29,772 nucleotides of DNA from Phycisphaeraceae bacterium. GTDB lineage: Bacteria; Planctomycetota; Phycisphaerae; Phycisphaerales; Phycisphaeraceae. Positions 433-12,951 of the stretch are shown in pieces. The stretch's first letter is position 1. Each line of letters begins with the position of its first letter. The position numbers and the translations under genes were made by a program. The stretch covers positions 1 through 29,772 of the forward strand of contig JADZET010000070.1 in assembly GCA_020850375.1 (NCBI GenBank), in the 5' to 3' direction. The notes beneath the pieces were generated by a model that worked only from the letters and a program-made list of their open reading frames with translations, was not told the DNA's origin and made no database searches.

Positions 433-2127
433 TCATGGTAGCGAAAGCTGGTCGATGTATCGGTCCTCGAAGCCGGGGTCGAGGTTGAGCTCGATGACCT
501 GCATGCTCTGGCCGAGGCGTGCGAGCTCGGGGAGGAGGCCGCGATCGACCAGGGCCATGTAGGCGCCGCCGAGGGAGGCGTTGCCGACGAGCTTGATCTG
601 GTGAGGCGTGAAGCCGGGGAGGAGGCCGCAGGCGATGGCATGGGTGATGTCCATGTGCATTCCGAAACCGCCGGCGAGGTAGAGGGTTTTGACGTCGCTC
701 GGTTGCAGGCCGACGCGGTCGAGGAGGGTCAGGATGCCGGCGGCGATGGCGGCCTTGGCCTGGAGGAGGCGGGCAATGTCGGTCTCGGAGATCAGGATGT
801 CGCGGCGGCCCTGGCCCTGGGCGATGCGGTAGGCTCGGCCGTGCTCGCCATCCTGGATGATGCTGGAGGTCAGGGGGATCGGCGGCGGATCGTTAAAGCG
901 GCCGGCGGGTGTGAGGAGATCGACGCGGCGGGCCTGGGCGAGGAAGTCGACGTAGCCCGAGCCGCAGATGCCCAGGGCGCTGCCGGGACGGGCGCCGGGG
1001 CGCTCGGCGCCGATGACTTCCATGATCGGGGCGAGGGTGCCGTCCTCGAAGCGGTAGTGGCTGACGGCGCCGTCGCCGGCGCGGATGCCCGAGGAGAGGC
1101 CGGCGCCCTCGAAGGCGGGGCCGGCGGCGGTGGCGCAGCCCCAGATGTGGTCGCCGCGCTTGAGGAGGATCTCGCCGTTGGTGCCGACGTCGACGAGGAG
1201 GCTCGGTCCTTCGTCGTAGGACAGGCCGGTGACGATGGCGCCGGCGCAGAGGTCGGCGCCGACGTAGGCCGACGCCCCCGGTAGGAGATGCACTTCGCCG
1301 ACTTGATCCAGGCCGAGCGAGCGGCCGGCGTGCACGCGATGGTCGAGGAACTTGGGCGTGAAGGGAACCATGCCCATGGGGCTGGGGTCCTCGCCGACGA
1401 GCAGGTGCAGCATCGTCGTGTTGGCGGCGACGGTCATGCCGGCGACGGCGGGGGCTGCTCTGCCATTGACGTCGACGCCTGCTTGCTGGAGGGCTTGGCG
1501 CAGCAGCGGGGTGAGGGTGTTGTCGACCACCTCCTTCTGGAGCTGGCGGATCATCGAGGGATCGGTCATGCAGAGGTTGATGCGCGTCAGGACGTCGTCG
1601 CCGAGGTGCATCTGGCGGTTGAAACCGGCGGCGCGGGCGACGACTTCGCCGGTGATGAGGTCCACGAGCATGACGACGACGGTGGTGGTGCCGATGTCCA
1701 CGGCGGCGCCGAGCGTTGCCCCGGTCGTTGGGACCAAGGGGTCTTTCGCGCCGCTGACCTGGAGGGAGAAATCGCTGACGACCTGGGGCTCGTAGGCGAG
1801 CATGGAGCGCAGGGGCAGGTGGAGGCGGAGCACATCGCTCTCGCCGGCGCGGTAGTCGCAGCCCCGGAAGGGAGTGGGGTCGCCGGGGGCGTCGGCGGAG
1901 CGGATGAGCGTGGTGCCGTCACGGATGGAGATGAGCGAGCCTTCGACGAGGTCGATGACGCAGCCCTGGCAGATGCCGCGTTGGCCGCAGCGGGTGTTGA
2001 GCGGCCAGTCCTGACGGCGGAGGATGTCGGCCAGGGGGCGATGGCGCTCCTTGGCGTCGATCCGGACGTGCGACCAGGGCTGCGGCTCGCCGGGGGCCTG
2101 CACCCACAGATCCAGAGGTTGCGGCAT
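433..2127 (-). CDS. Corrinoid-protein reductive activator (RamA/RACE type, 2Fe-2S plus ASKHA ATPase, DUF4445)
   Basis: This protein should use ATP to drive one-electron reduction of inactive Co(II) corrinoid back to Co(I) on its partner methyltransferase proteins in the cytoplasm. The N-terminal plant-type 2Fe-2S site is visible as Cys47, Cys53, Cys56 (CGQRGICQGC) and Cys90. It is followed by a linker and an actin/Hsp70-like ATPase with DIGTTTVV (about 144-151), LVDVGTNGEI (about 304) and the adenosine-site motif LAGGFG (about 498). The length of 564 residues fits the family. The ATG at 2127 is preferred because AAGGAAG sits 6 bases upstream; an ATG 30 bases earlier would overlap the DUF1638 gene. 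The family (COG3894) commonly accompanies corrinoid methyltransferases, and a corrinoid protein is encoded divergently at 3223. The partner assignment is inferred. Confidence 0.88.
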   Translation of the reverse strand: MPQPLDLWVQAPGEPQPWSHVRIDAKERHRPLADILRRQDWPLNTRCGQRGICQGCVIDLVEGSLISIRDGTTLIRSADAPGDPTPFRGCDYRAGESDVLRLHLPLRSMLAYEPQVVSDFSLQVSGAKDPLVPTTGATLGAAVDIGTTTVVVMLVDLITGEVVARAAGFNRQMHLGDDVLTRINLCMTDPSMIRQLQKEVVDNTLTPLLRQALQQAGVDVNGRAAPAVAGMTVAANTTMLHLLVGEDPSPMGMVPFTPKFLDHRVHAGRSLGLDQVGEVHLLPGASAYVGADLCAGAIVTGLSYDEGPSLLVDVGTNGEILLKRGDHIWGCATAAGPAFEGAGLSSGIRAGDGAVSHYRFEDGTLAPIMEVIGAERPGARPGSALGICGSGYVDFLAQARRVDLLTPAGRFNDPPPIPLTSSIIQDGEHGRAYRIAQGQGRRDILISETDIARLLQAKAAIAAGILTLLDRVGLQPSDVKTLYLAGGFGMHMDITHAIACGLLPGFTPHQIKLVGNASLGGAYMALVDRGLLPELARLGQSMQVIELNLDPGFEDRYIDQLSLP

Positions 2128-2137
2128 CGGCACTTCC

Positions 2138-3010
2138 TTAGCAAATCGGCTGGCCACGGAGGGTCACCGCGCGGACCACGGTTGCGTCGGGGGCGGCCTC
2201 GCAGGCCTGGCCAGGCTCGAGGACGAGGAAACGCTCGGCGTCCCAGCGGCCCATCAAGAGGTCGAGCAGGAGTTGCGGGTCGCCCTTCTGGGCGTCGAAG
2301 GACCAGCCCAGCCACTGGGCGCAGTGGCGGGTGTACTGCACGTCCTTCTCGTCGACGCCGACGCCGAGGTCGACCCAGACGGCGCGGTCGTACTTGGTCA
2401 TCCACTGCTGCTCCATCTGGACGAGGTACTCGGCGTTGTCCTGGCCGTAGAGCTGGACGTACTTCTCGAGCAGGCCCTTGTAACGCAGGGGGCCGGGAGG
2501 GACGTGGTGCTTGTTCCAACCGGGGGAGTACCAGTAGGCGCCGGGGTGCTTGGCGACGTAGTCGGCGTAGCGCTGATGGTCGCCCAGGAGCAGGGTGATG
2601 CAGTCGTGGGCGCGGGCCATGACGAGCCTGCATCGCTTGGCGGCGACGCCCTCGACCCCCCTGCTGCACAGGCCGTAGCCCAGGACGATGGCCTGGGCGT
2701 CGGTCGTTCGCTCGACGCGGTCGACGGCGGTCTGGAGATCCGCTCGCAACTTGGGCGGCTCGTTGTGCAGGCCCTGGGGCATGACCTCAAGATGGACAAT
2801 ATGACCCATCTGTTGCGCGAAATGACGAATCTCGTTCTCCATCACGGCGCAGGTGATCACGGCGATCCGCGGCGGCGGAGTCGTGGGGACGGTCTGCTGA
2901 GCGTTGGCTTGGTCGGGCACGTCGGAATTCCGTGAAATACCATGAAAAATCAGCCTTATGAGGCCTCGCATCGGCCGGCGCATCTGACGCTGGCCATCTC
3001 TTTCGTACAC
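2138..3010 (-). CDS. DUF1638 family protein
   Basis: The core matches DUF1638: an N-terminal strand RIAVITCAVMENEI, then AIVLGYGLCSRGV, a conserved ARAHDCITLLLG block and a YWYSPGW region. The biochemical role of the family is unknown to me. Its genes are often found near corrinoid methyltransferase and RamA-like genes, as here, where it lies 10 bases upstream of the activator gene and probably shares its transcript. The 5' end is uncertain. The longest frame starts with GTG at 3010 and codes 290 residues, but no ribosome site precedes it. A GTG at 2920, preceded by CACGGAA, would start just before the conserved core and give about 260 residues. A weak promoter at 3002-3030 also argues for a start downstream of 3010. 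Confidence 0.8.
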   Translation of the reverse strand: MYERDGQRQMRRPMRGLIRLIFHGISRNSDVPDQANAQQTVPTTPPPRIAVITCAVMENEIRHFAQQMGHIVHLEVMPQGLHNEPPKLRADLQTAVDRVERTTDAQAIVLGYGLCSRGVEGVAAKRCRLVMARAHDCITLLLGDHQRYADYVAKHPGAYWYSPGWNKHHVPPGPLRYKGLLEKYVQLYGQDNAEYLVQMEQQWMTKYDRAVWVDLGVGVDEKDVQYTRHCAQWLGWSFDAQKGDPQLLLDLLMGRWDAERFLVLEPGQACEAAPDATVVRAVTLRGQPIC

Positions 3011-3030
3011 TCAACCGACGCTCAGTTCAA
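3002..3030 (-). promoter_or_regulatory. Possible sigma70-type promoter for the DUF1638-activator operon
   Basis: On the minus strand TTGAAC (3030-3025) and TACGAA (3007-3002) are separated by 17 bases. The -10 match is poor. If used, transcription would begin near 2995, inside the longest possible DUF1638 frame. Confidence 0.25.
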
Positions 3031-3174
3031 GCCGTGAGGAGCGCCCGGCTCGTTCTCCGTGTGGGCGGCGATGTGGATCGCCATGTTGTCCGTCCTGACC
3101 TACATCTTGAACACCCAGAGGCCGCTCCCCCACTTGATCCATCGGCGCTCAATGATACGCTCTGTATTAATCAA

Positions 3175-3198
3175 AGCGTCAAATAATCCTTTGACGCT
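3175..3198 (+). promoter_or_regulatory. Perfect 9-bp inverted repeat just upstream of the corrinoid-protein RBS
   Basis: AGCGTCAAA (3175-3183) and TTTGACGCT (3190-3198) are perfect inverted copies around a 6-base spacer TAATCC. The element ends 10 bases before the AGGAG ribosome site (3209-3213) of the corrinoid-protein gene. It could be a dimeric-repressor operator or an mRNA hairpin; the sequence does not decide which. Confidence 0.5.
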
Positions 3199-3222
3199 AT
3201 TCCTTAACAGGAGTTCGCCACC

Positions 3223-3852
3223 ATGGCTGATCTGAACGCCCTCAAGGAAGCTGTCATCAAGGGCGATCGCGCCGGCGCCACGAAGCTGACCAAGGAACTG
3301 CTCGCCGCGGGCACGCCGCCCAAGGCGGTGCTCGACGAGGGGCTCGTGGCGGGCATGGCGGTGGTCGGGGCGCGGTTCAAGAGGAACGAGGTCTTCGTGC
3401 CCGAGGTGCTGATCGCCGCTCGGGCGATGAAAGAGGCGATGGTCATCCTTGAGCCGGTGTTGGTCAAGGCCGGCATCAAGCCCGCGCACACGGCGGTCAT
3501 CGGGACCGTGCAGGGCGACCTGCACGACATCGGGAAGAACCTGGTGGCGATGATGTGGAAGGGCGCGAACTTCGGCGTGGTGGACCTGGGGACGAACGTC
3601 TCGCCGCAGCGGTTCGTCGACGCGGCGCAGGAGCACAAGGCGTCGATCGTGGGGCTGTCCTCGCTGCTGACGACGACGATGCCGGCGATGAAGCAGGCGG
3701 TCGTCGCCCTGCGGGCGGCCAACGTGACGTCGAAGATCCTCATCGGCGGGGCGCCGGTGACGCAGGCGTTCGCGCAGGAGATCGGGGCTGACGGCTACGC
3801 CCCCGACGCGGCGAGCGCCGTCGACATCGCCCAGAAACTCGTCACCGCCTAA
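3223..3852 (+). CDS. Corrinoid (B12)-binding methyltransferase protein, MttC/MtbC type
   Basis: This 209-residue protein carries the corrinoid that shuttles a methyl group between a substrate-specific methyltransferase and an acceptor enzyme. Residues 1-85 are the helical B12-binding cap, ending in EVFVPEVLIAARAMKEAM. The Rossmann domain has the cobalt-ligand motif GDLHDIGKN with His101, then a SSLLTTTM block and GGAPVT near the nucleotide tail. The length is typical of MttC/MtbC/MtaC proteins. The ATG at 3223 follows AGGAG with a 9-base gap. It faces the activator/DUF1638 operon divergently and is followed by the zinc-site UroD-family methyltransferase. No MttB, MtbB or MtaB-type partner is visible, so the methyl donor is unknown. 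Confidence 0.93.
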   Translation: MADLNALKEAVIKGDRAGATKLTKELLAAGTPPKAVLDEGLVAGMAVVGARFKRNEVFVPEVLIAARAMKEAMVILEPVLVKAGIKPAHTAVIGTVQGDLHDIGKNLVAMMWKGANFGVVDLGTNVSPQRFVDAAQEHKASIVGLSSLLTTTMPAMKQAVVALRAANVTSKILIGGAPVTQAFAQEIGADGYAPDAASAVDIAQKLVTA

Positions 3853-3886
3853 CCCCCGGAAGCCCGCCCCCGGAAGTTTACTCCGG
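3853..3886 (+). repeat. CCCCCGGAAG-type interspersed repeat, copies 2 and 3 (tandem, hairpin)
   Basis: CCCCCGGAAG at 3853-3862 directly follows the corrinoid-protein stop codon. The fuller copy CCCCCGGAAGTTTACTCCGG lies at 3867-3886. CCGGA (3870-3874) can pair with TCCGG (3882-3886). It may act as a mRNA 3'-end hairpin. Confidence 0.6.
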
Positions 3887-3955
3887 TTATCCATATGCAC
3901 CGCATACTTGACGCAACCCAAGCACCACGTCGCTTAGGCTGGAGATCCTCCGCGC

Positions 3956-5014
3956 ATGGACAGGCCGTATTACCTCGACCTCGCCGCCCAGGGACTCCGC
4001 ATGCCCATCGGCACGGACCTGGTGCTGCATGAGCGGCCGGATGCCCGAGAGGCGGTGCTCGATGGACGCCGACTCGGGCAGGTCGTCGTCGAGTCGGCGC
4101 GGCGATATCGGACGCCGTTGGCGATGCCGCTGATGGACCTGGCGATCGAGAAGGCGTGGCTGCTGAGCATCCAGGGGGTGCCGGCCGAGCAGCATGAGAC
4201 GTATCAGTTTGCCTCATCGCCCGAGATCAACATGCGGAAACTCGACGCCGCGCTGGCGTCGACGGGCACGCCGCGGCTGACGGCGACGATCGAGGCGGTG
4301 CGGCTGGTGGCGCGTGAGACGGAACTGCTGGCGGTGGGGATGAGCATCGGGCCGTTCTCGCTGACGACGAAGATGATGCTGGACCCGATCACGCCGGTGT
4401 TCCTGGCCGGTTCGGGGGCATCGGCGGCGGATGAGCCGGAGGTGGCGGTGCTGACGGCGTTGCTGGCGATCAGCGAGAGGGTGATCCATGCGTCGGTGCG
4501 CCGGCAGATCGAGGCGGGGGCGAGGCTGATTGTTGTCTGCGAGCCGGCGGCGAACACGACGTTCATCTCGCCGAATCAGATGGCGGGCGGGTCGGATGTG
4601 TTCGAGCGGTTTGTCATCGAGCCCAATCAGCGGCTGCGGAAGCTGCTGGGCGAGCACGGCGTCGATCTATTCCTGCACGACTGCGGGGAGCTGACCGACG
4701 ACATGCTGCGACGATTGGTCGTGCTCGATCCGGCGGTCCTGAGCCTGGGGGCGAGCAGGACGCTGTGGCTCGACGCGGCGATCGTGCCCAAGACGACGGT
4801 GCTGTACGGGAACCTGCCGACGAAGCGGTTCTATTCCGATGAGCTGACGCCGGTCGGGCTGGTCGAGAAGATGACGCGGGAACTGATCGGCAGGATGGGC
4901 GAGGTCCGGCACCCGTTCATCCTGGGGTCGGAGTGCGATGTGCTGTCGGTGGCGGGGGCTCACGAGACGATCCGCCGGAAGGTCCGGGCGATGCTCGACT
5001 GCCCGGCATGCTGA
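3956..5014 (+). CDS. Zn-dependent UroD-family methyltransferase (MtaA/MtbA-like)
   Basis: This 352-residue protein has the uroporphyrinogen-decarboxylase TIM-barrel fold used by methylcobamide:thiol methyltransferases. The zinc signature is intact: His241-x-Cys243 in LFLHDCGELTDD and Cys327 in LGSECDVLSVAG, a spacing close to that of MtaA/MtbA enzymes. A VGMSIGPFSLTTKMMLDP segment (about 127-145) matches the substrate-side loop of that group. It probably moves a methyl group between the corrinoid protein encoded just upstream and a thiol; bacteria generally lack coenzyme M here, so homocysteine or another thiol is likelier (inferred). A GGAG site lies upstream of ATG 3956. Among the UroD-like proteins in this window it is the only one with the full His-x-Cys...Cys zinc site. 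Confidence 0.88.
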   Translation: MDRPYYLDLAAQGLRMPIGTDLVLHERPDAREAVLDGRRLGQVVVESARRYRTPLAMPLMDLAIEKAWLLSIQGVPAEQHETYQFASSPEINMRKLDAALASTGTPRLTATIEAVRLVARETELLAVGMSIGPFSLTTKMMLDPITPVFLAGSGASAADEPEVAVLTALLAISERVIHASVRRQIEAGARLIVVCEPAANTTFISPNQMAGGSDVFERFVIEPNQRLRKLLGEHGVDLFLHDCGELTDDMLRRLVVLDPAVLSLGASRTLWLDAAIVPKTTVLYGNLPTKRFYSDELTPVGLVEKMTRELIGRMGEVRHPFILGSECDVLSVAGAHETIRRKVRAMLDCPAC

Positions 5015-5122
5015 CGGCGTGACTTCGCCCGAAACAGGCGGGGGCGTTAACATCACGTCGCATCTGGAAAGAGTCCGAGCAGGCACACCCCCTACTTCTT
5101 CCGAGCGTGAGGAGTGATCGAC

Positions 5123-6154
5123 ATGGCTCGCTTCGCAAAACCGCAGGACATCAAGGTCGGCGTGATCGGGTACGGGGGCGCGTTCAACATGGGCAAGGCG
5201 CACCTCGAGGAGATGAAGCGGGCGGGGATGACGCCCGTGGCGGTGGCGGAGATCGACGAGAAGCGGCTGGACGTTGCCAGGAAGGACTTCCCGGGCATCG
5301 AGACGTACGGCTCGGTGGCCAGGATGCTCAAGGAGTCGGACGTCCACCTGCTGGCGATCATCACGCCGCACAACACGCACGCGGCGTTGTCGCTGCAGTG
5401 CCTGCGGGCGGGACGGCACGTGGTGTGCGAGAAGCCGTTCGCCATCACGACGGCGGAGTGCGATCGGATGATCGCCGAGGCGAAGAAGCGCAAGCTGGTG
5501 GTCTCGACGTATCACAACCGGCACTGGGACGGGTGCATCCTGCACGCGCTGGACCGGATCAAGAAGGGGGAGATCGGGCAGGTGATCCGGGTCGAGGCCC
5601 ACATGGGCGGGTACAACAAGCCGGGGGACTGGTGGCGGGCGAGCAAGTCCATCTCGGGGGGGATCCTCTACGACTGGGGGGTGCACCTGCTCGAGTACTC
5701 GCTGCAGATCATCACCTCGCCGATCGTGGAGGTCAGCGGGTTCGCCAAGAAGGGGCACTGGGCGCCGCAGAGCAAGTGGAAGCAGGACGCCAACGAGGAC
5801 GAGGGGTTTGCCGTGGTCCGGTTCAAGTCCGGGCAGTGGCTGACGCTGTGCATCACGAGCATCGACAGCAACGCCAAGCGCGGGCAGATGGAGATCACCG
5901 GGACGGAGGGGACGTACATCCTGGACTACCGCACGTGGGAGATCATCCGCCACGAGGGCCATGAGAAGGTGGTCACGTCGGGGAAGAATCCGGATTCGCA
6001 GGGGTACCGGCTCTACCAGAACGTGGCGGACCATCTGACGAAGGGGACGGCGTTGGTGATCACCGGCGAGTGGGCACGGCGGCCGATCCATGTTCTGGAT
6101 CTGGCGAATAAGAGCGTGCGAAAGGGTAAGAGCCTCAGGGCCCGGTACACGTAG
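5123..6154 (+). CDS. Gfo/Idh/MocA family NAD(P)-dependent oxidoreductase
   Basis: This 343-residue protein has the two-domain Gfo/Idh/MocA architecture. The N-terminal Rossmann fold begins with KVGVIGYGGAFNMGKAH (about 11-27). The signature VCEKPFAITT places Glu103-Lys104-Pro105 at the usual cofactor/catalytic site. The C-terminal domain carries GGILYDWGVHLLEYSL, the conserved D..H segment that shapes the sugar site. Members oxidise or reduce sugars, inositols and related polyols; the substrate is not predictable here. ATG at 5123 is chosen because GAGGAG (5109-5114) lies 8 bases upstream; an in-frame GTG at 5114 overlaps that ribosome site. It sits between two UroD-like genes and may process the demethylated product or its precursor (inferred). 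Confidence 0.9.
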   Translation: MARFAKPQDIKVGVIGYGGAFNMGKAHLEEMKRAGMTPVAVAEIDEKRLDVARKDFPGIETYGSVARMLKESDVHLLAIITPHNTHAALSLQCLRAGRHVVCEKPFAITTAECDRMIAEAKKRKLVVSTYHNRHWDGCILHALDRIKKGEIGQVIRVEAHMGGYNKPGDWWRASKSISGGILYDWGVHLLEYSLQIITSPIVEVSGFAKKGHWAPQSKWKQDANEDEGFAVVRFKSGQWLTLCITSIDSNAKRGQMEITGTEGTYILDYRTWEIIRHEGHEKVVTSGKNPDSQGYRLYQNVADHLTKGTALVITGEWARRPIHVLDLANKSVRKGKSLRARYT

Positions 6155-6180
6155 AATCTCCGATCTCAGTTCTGATTCCC

Positions 6181-7266
6181 ATGCCCACCTCCCTGACCAG
6201 CCAAGAACGTGTCCGTCGCATGATGGAGCATCGCGACCACGATCGCGTGCCGCGCAGCGACGGCTACTGGGACGAGACCATCGCGCGATGGCAGCAGGAG
6301 GGGCTGGCGGGGTCGACCGAGGCGGTGTGGAAGCTGCTGCGGCGGGACTTTGCTCACCTGTGCTGGGACTGGCCCCGGCCGTTCCCGGGAAGGTGGGAGG
6401 TGCTGGAGGAGGACCACGAGACGCGCGTGGTGATCGACGGATTCGGGCAGAAGACCCGCGAGTGGAAGCATCGCTCGGGGACGCCGGAGCACCTGGGGTG
6501 GGAGTGCGACGGTCCCCGGAAGTGGAGAGAGGTGTTTCGGCCGTCGCTGCTGGGGACGGGGCTGCAGGTCTCGATCGAGGACGGCAGGGCGCGATTCGCC
6601 GAGGGACGGCGGGATGGGTTGTGGTGCTATTTCGCGGGCGTGGAGGGGTTCGAGGCCACGCGCAAGATGCTCGGGGATGAGATGTCGCTGATGGCCATGG
6701 CGGAGGATCCGGAGTGGATCCGGGACGTCTCGGCGGTGCACACCGACGTGCTGCTGCGCGACTTCAATGCCCTGTGGGACGCAGGGGTGCGGCCGGACGG
6801 CGTCTGGATCTACGGGGACATGGCGTTCAACCACGCCACGGTGTGCTCGCCGGCGATGTACCGGGAGTTGATCTGGCCCGACCACAAACGGCTCGTGGAC
6901 TGGGCCCACGAGCGCGGGTGCAAGTTCATCTACCACACCGACGGACGGATCCACGCGGTGCTCGATCTTTACGTCGAAGCGGGGTTCGACTGCCTGCAGC
7001 CGCTCGAGGCCAAGGCGGGGATGGACATCCGGGAGCTGTGCCCGGTCTACGGCGACCGATTGGCCATGTTCGGGAACATCGACATGACCGTGGCGGGGAC
7101 GAATGACCGGGAGAAGGTCGAGCACGAGGTACGCAGCAAGCTCGCGGCGGGGATGGCGACGAAGGCGTATGCGTATCACTCGGATCACTCGGTGCCGCCG
7201 ACGGTGAGTTGGGAGACGTATCAGTGGATCATTGAATTGCTCGACCGGCACGGGAATTACATGTAA
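6181..7266 (+). CDS. UroD-fold protein, diverged paralogue (no HxC...C zinc site)
   Basis: This 361-residue protein belongs to the uroporphyrinogen-decarboxylase superfamily, in a branch common in planctomycetes and other degraders. The fold is recognised from MMEHRDHDRVPRSDGYW at the N-terminus, the central GVWIYGDMAFNHATVCSPAMY, then FIYHTDGR (252-255 HTDG) and a closing SDHSVPP block. The histidine at the metal-site position is followed by Thr-Asp-Gly rather than x-Cys, and no matching late cysteine is seen. Metal binding and methyl transfer are therefore not assured. It starts 26 bases after the oxidoreductase stop, with no clear ribosome site, so it is likely translated from the same mRNA. 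True UroD of haem synthesis is unlikely given the sequence divergence. The function is unknown. Confidence 0.82.
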   Translation: MPTSLTSQERVRRMMEHRDHDRVPRSDGYWDETIARWQQEGLAGSTEAVWKLLRRDFAHLCWDWPRPFPGRWEVLEEDHETRVVIDGFGQKTREWKHRSGTPEHLGWECDGPRKWREVFRPSLLGTGLQVSIEDGRARFAEGRRDGLWCYFAGVEGFEATRKMLGDEMSLMAMAEDPEWIRDVSAVHTDVLLRDFNALWDAGVRPDGVWIYGDMAFNHATVCSPAMYRELIWPDHKRLVDWAHERGCKFIYHTDGRIHAVLDLYVEAGFDCLQPLEAKAGMDIRELCPVYGDRLAMFGNIDMTVAGTNDREKVEHEVRSKLAAGMATKAYAYHSDHSVPPTVSWETYQWIIELLDRHGNYM

Positions 7267-7267
7267 G

Positions 7268-7286
7268 GCCCGGCCATCCGCCGGGC
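7268..7286 (+). terminator. GC-rich hairpin directly after the UroD-like gene
   Basis: GCCCGGC (7268-7274) and GCCGGGC (7280-7286) form a perfect 7-bp stem with loop CATCC, starting 2 bases after the stop codon. There is no T-run, so it may stabilise mRNA or slow polymerase rather than act as a classical terminator. Confidence 0.45.
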
Positions 7287-7315
7287 GTGCCTCGGATCAT
7301 CTGGGATTCAGAAAA

Positions 7316-7331
7316 TATCCCGGCGGGGATA
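7316..7331 (+). promoter_or_regulatory. TATCCC-GGCG-GGGATA palindrome upstream of the sigma gene
   Basis: TATCCC (7316-7321) and GGGATA (7326-7331) are inverted copies around GGCG, in the gap ahead of the sigma-factor gene. GATAAT (7328-7333) overlaps the right arm and resembles a -10 box, but no convincing -35 is seen. An operator overlapping the promoter is possible. Confidence 0.3.
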
Positions 7332-7387
7332 ATCCTCGGGGCCGCGGTGTGCATCCTTTCTGTGGAAGGCCTTCCAAGAGGTGCGAT

Positions 7388-8650
7388 GTGGATCAGGTGC
7401 GTGAACTCGTGACTCGGGCGGCTGCGGGCGGCTCGTTGGAGGAGCGCGTCGGCGCTTACGGGCAGCTTGTCGAGCGGTTTCGCGACATGGCCTGTGGGTA
7501 TGCCTATGCGATCCTGGGCGACTTCCACCTGGCGGAGGACGCGGCGCAGGAGGCGTTTGTGACGGCCTACCGGAAGCTGGGGCAGCTTGATGAGCCGGGG
7601 GCGTTCCCGGGCTGGTTCCGGAGCATCGTCAGGACGACGTGCGGGCAGATGACCCGGGGCAAGACGCTGCCGACGGCCCCGATGGATGCCGCAGCCGTGA
7701 TGCCGTCGCGGGACGACAGTCCGGGCGAACTTGCGGAGGCCCATGAGATGCGCGACCAGGTGCTTGCGGCGATCAGCCAGCTCCCGGACGAGCAACGCGA
7801 GGTCACGACCCTGTTCTACATCAACGGGTATTCGCAACAGGACATCGCCGACTTCCTGGAGGTGCCGGTCGGGACGGTCAAGAACCGGCTGCACGCCTCA
7901 CGGGGTCGGCTCAAGCAGAGGATGCTGAACATGGTCAAGGACACACTGCATGAAAACGCTCCCGACGAGCGTTTTGACAAGAGGGTCATCGAGAGTCTGC
8001 TGACGAGGCCCAATCTGCTGGAGATCGAGGACCATCCGGTGCGGCAGGTTCTGGACGCGATCCGTCAGGCGCTGGCGGAGTTCGATTTCGTCTCGGCGGA
8101 GGATGTCGTCGTGCCGCCAGCAAAGGCCACGAAGGAATCCTTCTCTCAGGCCTACCAGGTCGACGACGAAAAGATCCTGAGCTATGAGACGACGATCAGT
8201 CTGTTCCGGGCGGTCAGGGGTCGTCGCCCGCCGGTTCACCTGATCGCGGCGGGTCGGTCATTCCGCGCGGTCGGTGAGACGCCCTGGCACAGCAAGACGT
8301 TTCATCAGATGGACGCTCTGGTCGTGGAACGTGACGCGTCGGACGAACGGTGTCTCGCCCTTCTGCGACGTGTGCTGCACGCGGCGCTAGGCAATGAGGA
8401 TTTCAGGCCGGGGCAGGTCGTTCCGCTGTGGTACGCCCATGGGTACCGTGAGGCCCTGGTGCAATCGCCCGGCGGCCTGATCAACCCCGCCGGCTACGGG
8501 CGCATCGAGGCCGATGTGCTGGCGGATCTGGGCTATGACCCGGGGACAGTGGGCGGCTATGCGGTGGATTTTGGCCTGGATCGCCTGGCCATGCTGCGAT
8601 GCAGGATCGAGGATATTCATGCGCTCTGGGCGCCGCCCTACCTCCGCTGA
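7388..8650 (+). CDS. ECF-type sigma factor fused to a PheS-like class II aminoacyl-tRNA synthetase domain
   Basis: The protein has 420 residues from GTG 7388, which follows AAGAGG; longer in-frame starts have no such support. Residues 20-85 are sigma region 2 (YAILGDFHLAEDAAQEAFVT, GAFPGWFRSIVRT). Residues 127-180 are region 4 (LPDEQREVTTLFYINGYSQQ, then VPVGTVKNRLHASRGRL). After a short linker, residues 215-420 follow the alpha subunit of phenylalanyl-tRNA synthetase block by block: DHPVRQVLDAI, RPPVHLIAAGRSFR (motif 2 arginine 293), FHQMDALVVE (305-314, the PheS FHQMEGLVVD block), GYDPGTVGGYAVDFGLDRLAML (motif 3, Arg399) and a closing IEDIHALWAPPYLR. The PheS FPFTEPS phenylalanine-pocket segment is not conserved (VVPLWYAHGYREA). 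I infer a sigma factor controlled by a ligand-binding synthetase-like domain. No anti-sigma gene is adjacent. Confidence 0.85.
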   Translation: MDQVRELVTRAAAGGSLEERVGAYGQLVERFRDMACGYAYAILGDFHLAEDAAQEAFVTAYRKLGQLDEPGAFPGWFRSIVRTTCGQMTRGKTLPTAPMDAAAVMPSRDDSPGELAEAHEMRDQVLAAISQLPDEQREVTTLFYINGYSQQDIADFLEVPVGTVKNRLHASRGRLKQRMLNMVKDTLHENAPDERFDKRVIESLLTRPNLLEIEDHPVRQVLDAIRQALAEFDFVSAEDVVVPPAKATKESFSQAYQVDDEKILSYETTISLFRAVRGRRPPVHLIAAGRSFRAVGETPWHSKTFHQMDALVVERDASDERCLALLRRVLHAALGNEDFRPGQVVPLWYAHGYREALVQSPGGLINPAGYGRIEADVLADLGYDPGTVGGYAVDFGLDRLAMLRCRIEDIHALWAPPYLR

Positions 8651-8674
8651 AACGGTCGGGCCGCATGGAATGCA

Positions 8675-8714
8675 CACCGGCGAGGGCACTGCAGTCGGCA
8701 TGCCCTCGCCGGTG
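8675..8714 (+). terminator. Perfect 14-bp stem hairpin after the sigma gene
   Basis: CACCGGCGAGGGCA (8675-8688) and TGCCCTCGCCGGTG (8701-8714) are perfect inverted copies with a 12-base loop, 25 bases after the sigma stop. ACGTTTCG follows instead of a long T-run. It is the strongest hairpin in this part and likely ends or processes the sigma transcript. Confidence 0.65.
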
Positions 8715-8806
8715 ACGTTTCGATGGCCCCCAGCCACGCCCGGCGTGCGGAACTTCCCTGCATAAGCGACAATGCCCCCGGGCGGGGATGGCTGGAGTTG
8801 GCCGTC

Positions 8807-9928
8807 ATGAACACGCGTGAGCGATTCCTCGCTCAGATGCACTACCGGCCTCGCGATCGGTCGCTGATCTGGGACTTCAACTTCTGGCGCGAGACCATCG
8901 CCATCTGGCACGAGCAGGGGCTGCCCCCGGAGGTGGTGCACGACTACCGGGGGACGCACACCGACCCCTTCTTCGGGATGGACCCCACGGCGGCGTGGGT
9001 GGGGTATCCGGGGCTGTCGCCGGCCTTCGAGGCCAAGGTAATCGAAGACCGCGGGGATCACGAGGTCGTCCAGCAGGACAACGGCGTGCAGGTGCTGCGG
9101 AAGAAGTTTATGAGTTCGATCCCGCAGCACGTGGGGCATCTGCTGGTGGATCGTGAGAGCTGGAACAAACACTACCGGCCGCGGCTCGACCCGTCATTGG
9201 CCCATCGCATCAACGGTCAGAACGCCAGGGATCAGCAGGCGGCGGGCAACGTGCTGGTGGTTGGCGGCGGCAGCCTCTATGGCTGGCTGCGCGACTGGAT
9301 GGGCATGGAGAATCTGTCACTGGTGGTCTACGACGACCCCGCCTGGTTCGAGGAGATGGTCACCACCGCGGCCGACTGCATCGTCGGCGTGATCGCGAGG
9401 ATCAAGGAGCTGGGCATCCGGCCCGACGCCTGCGGGATCTGGGAAGATATGTGCTTCAACGCGGGGCCGCTGCTGAGCCCGCAGCACTTCAAGCAGTTTC
9501 TTGTGCCGCAGTACCGGCGGATCACGGACCTCTTGCACAGCATCGGCGTGGACGTGGTCTGGGTCGACTGCGACGGCTGCATTGATCAGCTCGTGCCGCT
9601 GTGGCTCGAGGCGGGTGTGAACTGCATGTTCCCCATCGAGGTCGGGACGTGGGGAGGCGACCCGGTCAAGTTTCGCGAGCAGTACGGGAAGGACCTTCTG
9701 ATGGTCGGCGGGTTCGACAAGCGTGTCCTCATGCGAGGGCCGGCGGCGATTGATGCGGAGGTTCAACGCCTGACGCCGCTGGTTGAGGAGGGCGGCTTCA
9801 TCCCGCTGCCGGACCATCGTGTGCCGCCGGACGTGCCGTACGCTCACTACATCCACTATCTCAAACAGGCCCGCAAGATCTGGGGGAAGGACACCGACCT
9901 GCGGCCGATGCATCCTTCGATAGCCTGA
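8807..9928 (+). CDS. UroD-fold protein, second diverged paralogue
   Basis: This 373-residue UroD-superfamily protein starts at ATG 8807, with TGGAG 9 bases upstream; a longer frame back to 8723 lacks family sequence. Recognisable elements are MNTRERFLAQMHYRPRDRS, FNFWRETIAIWHEQGLP, GIWEDMCFNAGPLLSP (about 210-225), VDVVWVDCDGCID (253-257 VDCDG at the metal-site position), the FPIEVGTWGGDP block and DHRVPPDVPYAHYIHYL near the end. The metal-site histidine of MtaA/MtbA is replaced by Val-Asp-Cys-Asp, so any metal binding must differ from the zinc enzymes. It follows the sigma gene and its hairpin, so it may form a new transcription unit with the next two genes. The substrate is unknown; a methyltransferase role is only suggested by context. 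Confidence 0.82.
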   Translation: MNTRERFLAQMHYRPRDRSLIWDFNFWRETIAIWHEQGLPPEVVHDYRGTHTDPFFGMDPTAAWVGYPGLSPAFEAKVIEDRGDHEVVQQDNGVQVLRKKFMSSIPQHVGHLLVDRESWNKHYRPRLDPSLAHRINGQNARDQQAAGNVLVVGGGSLYGWLRDWMGMENLSLVVYDDPAWFEEMVTTAADCIVGVIARIKELGIRPDACGIWEDMCFNAGPLLSPQHFKQFLVPQYRRITDLLHSIGVDVVWVDCDGCIDQLVPLWLEAGVNCMFPIEVGTWGGDPVKFREQYGKDLLMVGGFDKRVLMRGPAAIDAEVQRLTPLVEEGGFIPLPDHRVPPDVPYAHYIHYLKQARKIWGKDTDLRPMHPSIA

Positions 9929-9962
9929 TTTTCCCCCGCCCTGATGCTGATGAGTCCGCACT

Positions 9963-11114
9963 ATGACCATCATCCATGCGCCGATTGAACCGATGCCCCA
10001 TCTGTCGCGATGGGAAGAGAACCTGCGGCGCATCGCCGCGTCGCCGCTGGAGCGATGCCCGGAATTCCCGCGGATCGCGGAGCGATGGGAGGCTTGGTGG
10101 CATCACGAGCTGGTGGATCGGCCGGTGTTTCTGGGCAAGGTCAACACGGACCCACGGCGGGCCATGGAGAAACGGACGGACCTGCTGCACCGGCAGGACG
10201 AATGGTTCGCCGGCAAACAAGAGGATCTTGAGCAGAAGCATTTCGTCGGGGATTGTGTGCCGAACATTCGAGTGGACTTTGGGCCGGTGCTGTTGGGCGG
10301 GTTGCTGGGGGGGCGGATGGAGTTCGGGACGAGCACGTCGTGGACGCATCCGCATATCCGCGATGACTGGTCGAACCGGCCGGGGGGGAGGATCATCGAT
10401 GGGGAGCTGTACGGGCTGCTCAAGGAGCTGTTCCTGCGTGTGGCGCAGGACGCGGCGGGGCGATATCTGATCTGCACGCCGGACCTGGGCGGGTCGGCGG
10501 ACGTGCTGTCGAACCTGCGCGGGCCCGAGACGCTGTGCATGGATGTGATCGACTGTCCACGGAACATCGCCGAGACGATTGACGCGATCTACCCGGCGTG
10601 GCATGAGGCGCTGAGCGCGCTTTATGACATTGCGACGGAGGCGGGGGCGGGGCTGATCCACTGGCTGGAGATCTGGTCGAACAAGCCGTACATGATCCCG
10701 GCATGCGACTTCAACTTCCTGATTGATCAGGAGTCATTCAATCGGCTGTGCCTGCCGGACATCGCTCGGCAGACGGCCACGATCGGACGCGGGGTGTTTC
10801 ACCTCGATGGGCCGGGGGCGACGCGGCACATCGATGCTCTGCTGGAGGTGCCTTGCCTCGAGGCGATCCAGTTTGTGCCCGGGGCGGGGACGCCCTCGAC
10901 GCTGCCGTGGGTGGAGATGTTCCGGAAGATCCAGGGGGCGGGGCGGTCGTTGTTTATTGTCTGCCCGCCCGACGAGGTGCTGAGGCTCTGCCGGTCGCTG
11001 CGGCCGGAAGGGCTGGCGATTCAGGTGAACTCCGGCGGGGGGCCGGCGGAATTGAGCGAACTTTTCAACGCATTCTGCAGGCAATCGATGCGTCCGCGAG
11101 CCGGCGGGGGATGA
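9963..11114 (+). CDS. UroD-fold-like protein, third diverged paralogue
   Basis: This 383-residue protein is a more distant member of the UroD/methyltransferase superfamily. Supporting blocks are an internal ICTPDLGGSADVLSNLRGPE (about 170-190), WLEIWSNKPYMIPACDFNF (about 234-252), GRGVFHLDGPGATRHIDALL (276-294, with HLDGPGA where zinc enzymes have their HxC motif) and a C-terminal VCPPDEVLRL region. The His of the metal motif is kept but the adjacent cysteine is absent. ATG 9963 has only a weak upstream site. It is 34 bases from the preceding UroD-like gene and 84 bases before the homocysteine methyltransferase, consistent with one operon. Function is unassigned. Confidence 0.75.
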   Translation: MTIIHAPIEPMPHLSRWEENLRRIAASPLERCPEFPRIAERWEAWWHHELVDRPVFLGKVNTDPRRAMEKRTDLLHRQDEWFAGKQEDLEQKHFVGDCVPNIRVDFGPVLLGGLLGGRMEFGTSTSWTHPHIRDDWSNRPGGRIIDGELYGLLKELFLRVAQDAAGRYLICTPDLGGSADVLSNLRGPETLCMDVIDCPRNIAETIDAIYPAWHEALSALYDIATEAGAGLIHWLEIWSNKPYMIPACDFNFLIDQESFNRLCLPDIARQTATIGRGVFHLDGPGATRHIDALLEVPCLEAIQFVPGAGTPSTLPWVEMFRKIQGAGRSLFIVCPPDEVLRLCRSLRPEGLAIQVNSGGGPAELSELFNAFCRQSMRPRAGGG

Positions 11115-11198
11115 TGCTGTTTGTGGGTTGCCCCTCCGCGCCGTGAGGAGCACAATGAGCTGAGGCAGTCCGTTCATCTATCGCCTGGAGTCACTCGC

Positions 11199-12089
11199 AT
11201 GGCCAGACCCGATCTCTTGAAACTTCTCGCCCGGCGAGCCGTGCTTTGCGACGGAGGCATGGGCACGCAGCTCATCGCGGCGGGGATGAGTCCGGGTGAG
11301 CCGTCGGCGAGGTGGAACCTGGACCACGCTGAGGTGGTACAGGCGGTGCATCGGCGATACAGGGAGGCGGGATGTGATCTGGTGACGACCAACACGTTCC
11401 AGGCCACGCGGACGGCGCTGGCTCAGCACGGGCTTGAGGGGCAGACGCGGGAGATCAACCTGGCGGCGGCGCGGAACGCACGGATCGGGGCGGGCGAGGG
11501 TGCGATCGTGCTGGGGGACGTCGGGCCTTTCGGTGGGTTTCTTGACCCGATGGGGGAGACGACGGAGGACGAGCTCTCGGAGATCTTCACAGAGCAATTG
11601 CAGGCCCTGTGCGACGGGGGGTGCGACGCGGTGGTCGTAGAGACCATGGGTGATGCGAATGAGGCGGCAGTGGCGGTGCGGGCGGCGAAGCGGGTGGCGG
11701 ATTGGCCGGTGATCGCGACGTTCGCCTTCGCGCGCACGGGGGGCGTGTTCCGCACGATGATGGGGACGACGGTGGAGCAGGCGCTCCGTGCGGTGCGGGA
11801 GGCGGGGGCGGAGGTCGTCGGGGCGAACTGCGGGACGGATCTGGAGCTTGAGGATTACGTGGAGCTGGCCCGCGAGGTGGTAAAGGGGGCGGGGAAGGCG
11901 TGGGCGATCATGCAGCCCAACGCCGGGGCGCCCAAGCTCGTCGATGGGCAGAGCGTTCACCCGGCGACGCCGGGGCAGATGGCGGGGTTCGCGCCGAAGT
12001 ATGTCGGGGCGGGGCTGGCGATTCTGGGGGGGTGCTGCGGGACGACGCCGGATCATCTGCGGGCGATGGCGGCGGTGGTGAAGAAGTAA
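11199..12089 (+). CDS. Homocysteine S-methyltransferase family protein
   Basis: This 296-residue enzyme has the homocysteine-binding barrel also found as the first domain of cobalamin-dependent methionine synthase. It has the opening LCDGGMGTQLIAAGM (17-30) and TTNTFQATR. Its zinc triad is Cys211 (GANCGTD) with Cys279-Cys280 (ILGGCCGTTPDHL). ATG 11199 is chosen because TGGAG lies 8 bases upstream. Stand-alone members such as MmuM use S-methylmethionine, whereas truncated MetH-like forms can take methyl groups from a separate corrinoid protein. The presence of a separate corrinoid protein at 3223 makes the latter attractive here, but this is inference. It is the last plus-strand gene of the methyl-transfer region and converges on aat. 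Confidence 0.92.
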   Translation: MARPDLLKLLARRAVLCDGGMGTQLIAAGMSPGEPSARWNLDHAEVVQAVHRRYREAGCDLVTTNTFQATRTALAQHGLEGQTREINLAAARNARIGAGEGAIVLGDVGPFGGFLDPMGETTEDELSEIFTEQLQALCDGGCDAVVVETMGDANEAAVAVRAAKRVADWPVIATFAFARTGGVFRTMMGTTVEQALRAVREAGAEVVGANCGTDLELEDYVELAREVVKGAGKAWAIMQPNAGAPKLVDGQSVHPATPGQMAGFAPKYVGAGLAILGGCCGTTPDHLRAMAAVVKK

Positions 12090-12100
12090 GGGGCGACGAG

Positions 12101-12757
12101 CTAACCCCCCCACCGCTCGCCCAACTGTAGCGCGGCGTCGAGGCGTTGGAGGTATTCCTTGGCGGGGATCTCGGTGGCGCCGAGCAGCGCGGTGACGGGG
12201 GTGACCATCTGGATGTCGAAGAGGCTAAAGCCTCGCTCGCGCAGGCGCTCGGCCAATTTCACGACGCAGACCTTCGAGGCGTCGTTGGCGCGGCTGAACA
12301 TGGACTCGCCGAAGAAGGCGCCGGCGAGGGCGACGCCGTAGAGGCCGCCGACGAGGCGGCGTGATGGGCTCGTGGGATCATCCGTTGAGGCGGGCTGCCA
12401 GGCCTCGACACTGTGGGCGAGGCCGAGGTGGTGCAGTTGGGTGTAGAGGTCGATGATCGCGGGGCTGATCCAGGTGTCGGGGCGTTTGGGCGTGGTCTGG
12501 GCGCAGCCGGCGATGACGTCGCTGAAGGCCTGGTCGAAGGTGACGAGGTAGTCGCCGCGGCGCAGGCGCTTGGCGAGGGATCGCGGGACGCGGAGGTTGT
12601 CGAGTTCGAGAATGCCGCGCGGGTCGGCGGTGTACCAGCGGACGTCGCCGGTGGCGGGATCGGCCATGGGGAAGACGCCCTGGGCGTAGGCGGAGAGGAC
12701 CTCCTCGATGGTGATGGCGGCTTGGCTGTTGTGCTCGGGGGAGTCGGTCTGGCCCAT
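12101..12757 (-). CDS. aat: Leucyl/phenylalanyl-tRNA-protein transferase
   Basis: This enzyme transfers Leu or Phe from charged tRNA to N-terminal Arg or Lys of proteins, marking them for ClpSAP in the N-degron pathway. Family blocks are clear: YAQGVFPMAD near the N-terminus, WYTADPRGILEL, YLVTFDQAFSDVIAGCA, TWISPAIIDLYTQLHHLGLA followed by HSVEAW, LVGGLYGVALAGAFFGESMF with SRANDASK, and DIQMVTP. ATG 12757 gives 218 residues, near the usual 200-235. An in-frame start at 12829 would add 24 unconserved residues, and neither start has a clear ribosome site. It converges on the homocysteine methyltransferase with 11 bases between stops. The gene for tRNA-Phe, one of its donor substrates, lies just upstream on the same strand. 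Confidence 0.95.
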   Translation of the reverse strand: MGQTDSPEHNSQAAITIEEVLSAYAQGVFPMADPATGDVRWYTADPRGILELDNLRVPRSLAKRLRRGDYLVTFDQAFSDVIAGCAQTTPKRPDTWISPAIIDLYTQLHHLGLAHSVEAWQPASTDDPTSPSRRLVGGLYGVALAGAFFGESMFSRANDASKVCVVKLAERLRERGFSLFDIQMVTPVTALLGATEIPAKEYLQRLDAALQLGERWGG

Positions 12758-12878: not shown

Positions 12879-12951
12879 TGGCCAGGGGCGGATTTGAACC
12901 GCCGACACTGCGATTTTCAGTCGCATGCTCTACCAACTGAGCTACCTGGCC
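12879..12951 (-). tRNA. tRNA-Phe (anticodon GAA)
   Basis: The minus strand from 12951 reads GGCCAGG at the acceptor 5' strand, pairing with CCTGGCC before discriminator A. The D arm has AGCTCAGTTGGTAGAGC, the anticodon stem-loop GCGA-CTGAAAA-TCGC gives anticodon GAA, and the T arm has GGCGGTTCAAATCCGCC. It is 73 nt long and CCA is not encoded. Confidence 0.96.

Follow-up and report, generated by a model that had tools for sequence, protein, structure and literature searches.

Can the activity of a sigma factor be set by the core of an aminoacyl-tRNA synthetase carried on the same polypeptide? The question is raised by a gene at positions 7388–8650 in a contig of a Phycisphaeraceae bacterium (Planctomycetota; GenBank assembly GCA_020850375.1, contig JADZET010000070.1), analyzed here over a stretch of 29,772 nucleotides (the window). 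An earlier note on this DNA read in the gene an extracytoplasmic function (ECF) sigma factor joined to a domain resembling PheS, the alpha subunit of bacterial phenylalanyl-tRNA synthetase (PheRS). The gene product looks like an undescribed kind of regulator and may switch on its own gene. We give an even chance to a one-protein regulator in which a fused class II synthetase-like domain sets the activity of an ECF sigma factor, with a ligand presumably gating it and the gene presumably regulating itself. Relatives of the protein span several bacterial phyla.

Architecture of the fusion

The gene is one uninterrupted frame of 420 amino acids, with a GTG start and no internal stop (Table 1). Sigma regions 2 and 4 both score above their Pfam cut-offs, and TIGR02937 gives 84.5 bits (cut-off 42.9), as in an ECF sigma factor; no region-3 sigma family is present among the Pfam matches of the protein. 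In the C-terminal part, the tRNA-synt_2d family covers positions 58–237 of its 246-position profile, and the motif 2 and motif 3 segments quoted in the earlier note are found there. The C-terminal domain is predicted by AF2 to be structured throughout (pLDDT 92–98). Comparison of the predicted core with the Protein Data Bank (PDB) gives a PheRS-like fold, with identities of 23% to E. coli PheS and of 14%–22% to PylRS and SepRS, two genuine tRNA ligases. The N-terminal coiled coil of PheS is missing, as had been said: residues 27–175 are sigma regions 2 and 4, and the eight Pfam families with matches at E ≤ 1 include no N-terminal domain of PheS.

A frameshift or an assembly join between the two halves, which the earlier note had to reckon with, is contradicted by the relatives. 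Among 894 database relatives (E ≤ 1e-3), the best 120 all carry PF01409 together with sigma domains. An ortholog (L001) is 89% identical, and dN/dS between the two genes is 0.19 overall (0.11 in the sigma part and 0.21 in the PheS-like part). Because of the fused relatives, this ortholog, and the low dN/dS in both halves, the frame is, on the comparisons made, no artefact, join, or accident.

As in PheS, there is a class II core containing motifs 2 and 3; the curated pheS model gives 64.5 bits against a cut-off of 237.45. SrmL (“PheS-related mystery ligase,” NCBIfam NF051887) is, by its NCBI name, related to PheS as the fusion core is. As a parent family it was rejected (64.8 bits against a cut-off of 300, in the synthetase part only), and no match to it above the cut-off occurs in 11 fusion genomes. 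By the tests made, the protein thus belongs to an ECF sigma subfamily and is neither PheS nor SrmL. A library of defense systems returned a single weak match (PDLC01851, E 0.009), confined to the sigma region-4 part.

The exchanged pocket of the PheS-like core

The ATP-contacting arginines of motifs 2 and 3 are retained in the window protein, in agreement with the earlier note. They are residues 293 and 399, which we take to be equivalent to R204 and R321 of T. thermophilus PheS (H178, S180, and G316 below are presumed to follow the same numbering). In the alignment of the window protein with its best 120 relatives (121 sequences), the motif-2 arginine is present in 108, the motif-3 arginine in 107, both in 100, and neither in six. 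In the FHQ segment, the histidine is kept in 119, the phenylalanine in 105, and the glutamine in 100. The position of H178 is occupied by Glu or Gln in 91 of the 121 and that of S180 by Thr in 100.

The phenylalanine pocket is different. True PheS cores (n = 30) have FP[FY]TEPS in 26 cases and FPFVEPG in the remaining four. The loss of FPFTEPS, noticed at first in one protein, holds throughout: FP[FY][TV]EPS is found in none of 20 fusion cores and in none of the 121 aligned sequences. Aromatic residues occupy both FPF positions in 44 of the 121, and one or both in 99. Of five stretches compared, the pocket segment varies most (2.79 bits; domain mean 1.89), the others being residues 236–262 (2.56), the H178 stretch (1.82), motif 2 (1.57), and motif 3 (1.21). 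Mean pairwise identity is 67% and 72% in the sigma regions and 44% in the PheS-like part. Such a pattern would fit a constant output combined with a diversified binding site.

When 20 fusion cores and 30 true PheS cores are placed in one tree, a branch with support 100/100 sets all fusions apart. The fusion core and PheS have in common the fold, the order of elements, and motifs 2 and 3; the fusion differs by its pocket, by the lack of the PheS N-terminal part, by the attached sigma factor, and by its separate clade. It also comes in addition to the genome's own PheS in most cases. The pheS model scores above the cut-off in 30 of 30 genomes of a first set (17 with a fusion) and in two of four of a second (all with a fusion), that is, in 19 of 21 fusion genomes. 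In genome G001, the nearest relative, there is a PheT-like gene (L224), with no PheS in the 5.5 kb examined around it. A candidate on contig C183 of G001 was rejected as a true PheS (pheS model 59.4 bits; fusion-core model 205 against 61 for a true-PheS model). It is a second sigma–PheS-like gene of that genome (L225), cut by the contig end, with the tail of sigma region 4 followed by a PheS-like core that, by reading, seems to be of the Acidobacteriota type.

Occurrence of the fusions

When the synthetase part of an Acidobacteriota member is used as query, 107 of the 120 matches listed (of 1707) have PF01409 with sigma region 2. The 13 others have PF01409 alone; they are shorter, mostly on short contigs, and possibly truncated. 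A scan of a genome collection kept 79 loci, among them 12 fusions (L001–L008, L059, L063, L074, and L076), in records of Phycisphaerae, other Planctomycetota, Hydrogenedentota, Armatimonadetes, and Acidobacteria. Fusions occur in at least seven of 397 genomes in the class of G001 (G001, G002, G004, G011, G029, G097, and G229), at least three of 68 in the phylum of G003, at least four of 201 in the phylum of G007, and at least six of 193 in the class of G012. These counts, which include two fusions cut by contig ends, are lower bounds because two of the four groups were sampled, only the 4–26 best candidates were scored per genome, and the E limit was strict (1e-60 or 1e-65). A stop was reported inside the match in G451; the gene call of L099 (1456–2742) nevertheless runs through. 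The sigma genes of L002 and L010, both titled Actinomycetes bacterium, group with Planctomycetota. Genome G002 (L002) is placed in the same class as G001, a Phycisphaeraceae genome, and the Actinomycetes title therefore looks wrong.

A sigma backbone with many C-terminal domains

The sigma parts of the fusions do not form one group. On a tree of 83 sigma domains that was built quickly and has SH-aLRT values as its only support, the PheS label needs five changes, at least three of them forced by well-supported branches. Seven Acidobacteriota-type fusions make a separate long branch, and the PheS-like L002 pairs as sister, at 100% support, with L010, whose C-terminal domain is unrelated. With the sigma parts so scattered, the PheS-like module has either moved between sigma backbones or been replaced on them. 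For ankyrin, the tree label comes from a crude pattern, which marks 31 rows where Pfam finds 35; the PheS label is unaffected.

Among the loci without a PheS-like domain, 63 of 67 open reading frames (ORFs) entered the Pfam scan; L014, L025, L026, and L048 (truncated, open-ended, or out of frame) were excluded from it and from the sigma tree. Sigma regions 2 and 4 are present in 63 of 63. Among the matches listed (25 of 27 families), the C-terminal parts are ankyrin repeats in 35 of 63, HEAT in four, and an ATP-synthase-type ATPase in three, with one case each of SecA core, glyoxalase, type II secretion F, bifunctional nuclease, Rho RNA-binding, GNAT, and DUF3471. As far as these domain matches go, this sigma backbone carries many different domains, of which the PheS-like one is a single example.

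Unusual C-terminal parts (SecA-like, ATPase, secretion F, and glyoxalase) were placed by reading in L039 (9971–12511, Lentisphaerae), L056, L061, and L062 (Chloroflexota), L046, and L050. A relative in Dictyobacter kobayashii (L067) seems, again by reading, to be of the ankyrin kind. On the same backbone, L021, L024, L038, and L043 carry a domain of about 370 residues (FPSCL...GPP...GW.FFQ), without an evident counterpart among the matches listed (25 Pfam families; loci not checked singly).

A promoter-like site at the gene

The family has an upstream motif, GGTAACCTTTT-N8-nnTGGGTCTTT, close in layout to the ECF promoter type AAC...GTC. Its layout was chosen by eye from the sequences preceding the genes of every member, the PheS fusions among them, and a first model was trained on the very sites it describes. 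A held-out model, started from the by-eye consensus and trained on 65 members without a PheS-like domain, finds sites at p ≤ 0.03 in 10 of 13 PheS fusions (L001–L005, L007, L063, L103, L104, and the window; 500 shuffles each, keeping single-base content only, with L103/L104 and window/L001 as near-copies). The variant predicted in the window (TAATCCTC/TGCATCC) scores 9.0 bits (p 0.026). L038, L048, and the Acidobacteriota-type fusions were kept out of the promoter training.

In 1.18 Mb, the final model gives 47 sites of at least 19 bits, and all 47 lie upstream of the sigma gene itself, on its strand. Such own sites trained the model, and the informative part is the lack of other sites: sites elsewhere number 31 against 38 in a reversed-sequence control at 13 bits, 10 against 12 at 15 bits, and 6 against 2 at 17 bits. 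The window site (13.8 bits) and the L001 site (13.5 bits) are each the best in their own sequence. With up to three mismatches, the window-type promoter has one match in the window and one in G001, both at the sigma gene. The pattern of -10-like element plus palindrome, searched in 10 genomes, recovers the own site without mismatch in five, with two extra sites at three mismatches; in the other five no site is found, the own site included. A degenerate pattern in 20 genomes of members without a PheS-like domain gives 89 matches against 144 in the reversed control.

Acidobacteriota-type fusions have an upstream motif of their own, GTCACR-N14-GTGTCYT, also picked by eye. In 12 genomes it has six exact matches, five of them at the own gene and none in the six genomes lacking a fusion. 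With one mismatch, the counts exceed the control alike in fusion genomes (70 against 45) and in the others (46 against 29), and this count therefore carries no signal. From the promoter scans, the own gene is thus the only target detected; targets with weaker promoters are possible.

A palindrome directly follows the -10-like element. This GAAGGCCTTC-type element recurs at the same place in L003, L006, L007, L011, L018, L062, L103, and L104, and its perfect 12-bp form is present in 4 of 67 upstream regions (window and L001 included) against a shuffle mean of 0.3%. Neither a riboswitch nor a T-box is matched by Rfam at gathering scores, and no sigma-70 promoter is found in 3000–12200.

Proposed mechanism and alternatives

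No anti-sigma domain is found in ten neighbors in the window. In the proposed scheme, the protein would have no anti-sigma partner, and the fused domain related to PheRS alpha would set the activity of the sigma part. This domain has retained the ATP-binding motifs and exchanged the phenylalanine pocket, and it would therefore probably bind an amino acid or another small carboxylate, perhaps held as an adenylate in many members. Binding would free or block the sigma part. We infer that this sigma factor recognizes its own site, and the active form would then transcribe its own gene from a dedicated promoter, in positive feedback. Paralogous synthetase cores are used for sensing in HisZ and in the HisRS-like domain of Gcn2; those are derived from HisRS and have no sigma fusion. 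A wider and distinctly more tentative proposal is a cross-phylum family of autogenous sigma factors, with one ECF backbone, interchangeable C-terminal modules, and private, self-read promoters that would be present at no other place in the genome. In its PheS-like members, an acyl-adenylate made or bound in the remodeled pocket would be the signal of a single-gene, self-amplifying metabolite switch.

Several observations weigh against the regulator proposed. One or both ATP arginines are lost in 21 of the 121 aligned sequences (the window protein and the best 120 of 894 relatives), so that catalysis is not general, and at motif 3 the window protein itself deviates (G316 to D). The p value of the window promoter is modest, with shuffles of single bases, and the promoter is not significant in L006 and L008 (p about 0.06) or L099 (p 0.82). 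Conserved neighbors are limited to near-relatives (window/L001; L074/L076/L126; L103/L104). In the nearest relative, G001, and in G006, the pheS model finds fusion-type matches only and no true PheS, these being draft genomes of unstated completeness in which PheS loss and an assembly gap look alike. A second target, which a sensor would be expected to have, did not appear in the promoter scans.

This last point bears on the main rival, which we consider possible and rather doubtful. There, the sigma part would only transcribe its own gene, and the C-terminal domain would be the effector, an adenylate-forming ligase or a binding protein; ankyrin, HEAT, SecA-like, and PheS-like parts would then be alternative outputs of one autogenous expression device. 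The sensor role put forward in the earlier note agrees with a conserved sigma part and a variable synthetase part; with so many alternative domains and the only promoter site found at the own gene, the C-terminal part may instead be output. The 47 own sites, the near-control level elsewhere, and the resemblance of some C-terminal domains to enzymes or motors all favor such cargo. However, other targets may have weaker promoters or promoters of another form, ankyrin repeats, the most frequent alternative, are normally binding modules, and the decay of the ATP residues is unlike a needed enzyme. Improbable is a role in controlling the corrinoid/URO-D methyltransferase island next to the gene (3223–12089), triggered by a methylated or amino substrate that this pathway uses. 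The gene does sit among island genes of its own strand, in an order that L001 keeps, but no second good promoter site lies upstream of the island, and the other fusion loci compared share none of its genes (nine of 22 with short flanks only); the island is therefore not taken as an evident target.

Recognition of RNA by the domain, either uncharged tRNA or the palindrome in the leader (7363–7376), seems slightly less probable still. Synthetase ancestry, a tRNA-Phe gene in the window, and the palindrome near the start codon in the window, L001, and several relatives speak for it. The core is preceded by sigma regions rather than by a tRNA-binding coiled coil, however, and Rfam matched two tRNAs only. 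The palindrome also stands before relatives without a PheS-like domain (L011, L018, L036, and L062) and thus looks like a promoter-proximal DNA element. Least probable of all is that the protein works as a subunit of phenylalanyl-tRNA synthetase, or that the fusion has no function. The PF01409 match with motifs 2 and 3, and the fusion-type matches of G001 and G006 with the PheT-like gene of the former, speak for this reading; the low pheS score, the replaced pocket, the separate PheS of most fusion genomes, at least 227 fused relatives, and the purifying selection seen between the window gene and L001 speak against it.

Comparison with known ECF sigma factors

The extensions of non-canonical ECFs described in the review PMC8999054 include SnoaL, TPR, WD40, Cys-rich, and anti-sigma-like domains. 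In PMC11032199, ECF domains of Gemmataceae are combined with WD40 repeats. The ECFs with a C-terminal extension in PMC8999054 are like the fusion: a further domain is joined to sigma regions 2 and 4, an anti-sigma gene is absent from the vicinity, and the extension is presumed to set activity. The text of that review names neither a synthetase nor ankyrin, whereas the extension here is a PheRS-like catalytic core on a sigma backbone that, unlike those ECFs, carries many unrelated domains. In its way of working, the protein seems closest to those ECF sigma factors that have a regulatory extension at the C terminus. The earlier note knew of no characterized sigma factor of this kind, and no description of a sigma–synthetase fusion was found in the open-licence literature. 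If the proposed regulator is real, we know of no earlier sigma factor that is gated by an aminoacyl-tRNA synthetase core, and a single polypeptide would link an amino acid or carboxylate directly to the start of transcription. Exchangeable C-terminal modules, together with a promoter that seems to serve only its own gene, suggest a class of regulators that could be reused as ligand-responsive switches. The protein also points to a new use of the PheS fold beyond translation.

Features and neighborhood of the gene

Table 1. Features at the fusion gene, in window coordinates
Feature	Positions	Strand	Basis
Predicted own promoter GATAATCCTCGG-N8-TGTGCATCCTTTCTGT, 24 nt upstream of start codon	7328..7363	+	Family promoter model
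Perfect 14-bp palindrome TGGAAGGCCTTCCA, directly 3′ of -10-like element	7363..7376	.	Sequence
Shine-Dalgarno-like AAGAGG	7376..7381	+	Sequence
Sigma factor–PheS-like fusion gene, complete, 420 aa	7388..8650	+	ORF, Pfam, relatives
Sigma region 2, residues 27–87	7466..7648	+	Pfam PF04542 (Sigma70_r2), E 7e-12
Sigma region 4, residues 123–175	7754..7912	+	Pfam PF08281 (Sigma70_r4_2), E 3e-14
Linker TLHxNAPDERFxxKVIxELLxRPxxLEI, about residues 184–212	7937..8023	+	Consensus, 36 relatives
PheS-like class II synthetase core, residues 215–415	8030..8632	+	PF01409 (E 6.1e-20), AF2, PDB comparison, position counts
Strong hairpin 3′ of stop, 14-bp arms 8675–8688/8701–8714, kept in L001	8675..8714	+	Sequence

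The hairpin separates the fusion gene from the next gene; it has no clear T tract and is absent from a terminator scan of 3000–12200. A conserved operon around the fusions was rejected: apart from the near-relatives, the sole shared pair of neighbors (L002/L004) lies at distant places. The island (433–12089) comprises a RACo activator, DUF1638, a B12-binding corrinoid protein, three URO-D-family proteins, a GFO/IDH/MocA oxidoreductase, a homocysteine methyltransferase, and one protein without a Pfam match (9963–11114); the fusion gene sits between URO-D-family genes. The tRNA-Phe (GAA) lies at 12879–12951 on the opposite strand, about 4 kb downstream, probably by coincidence.
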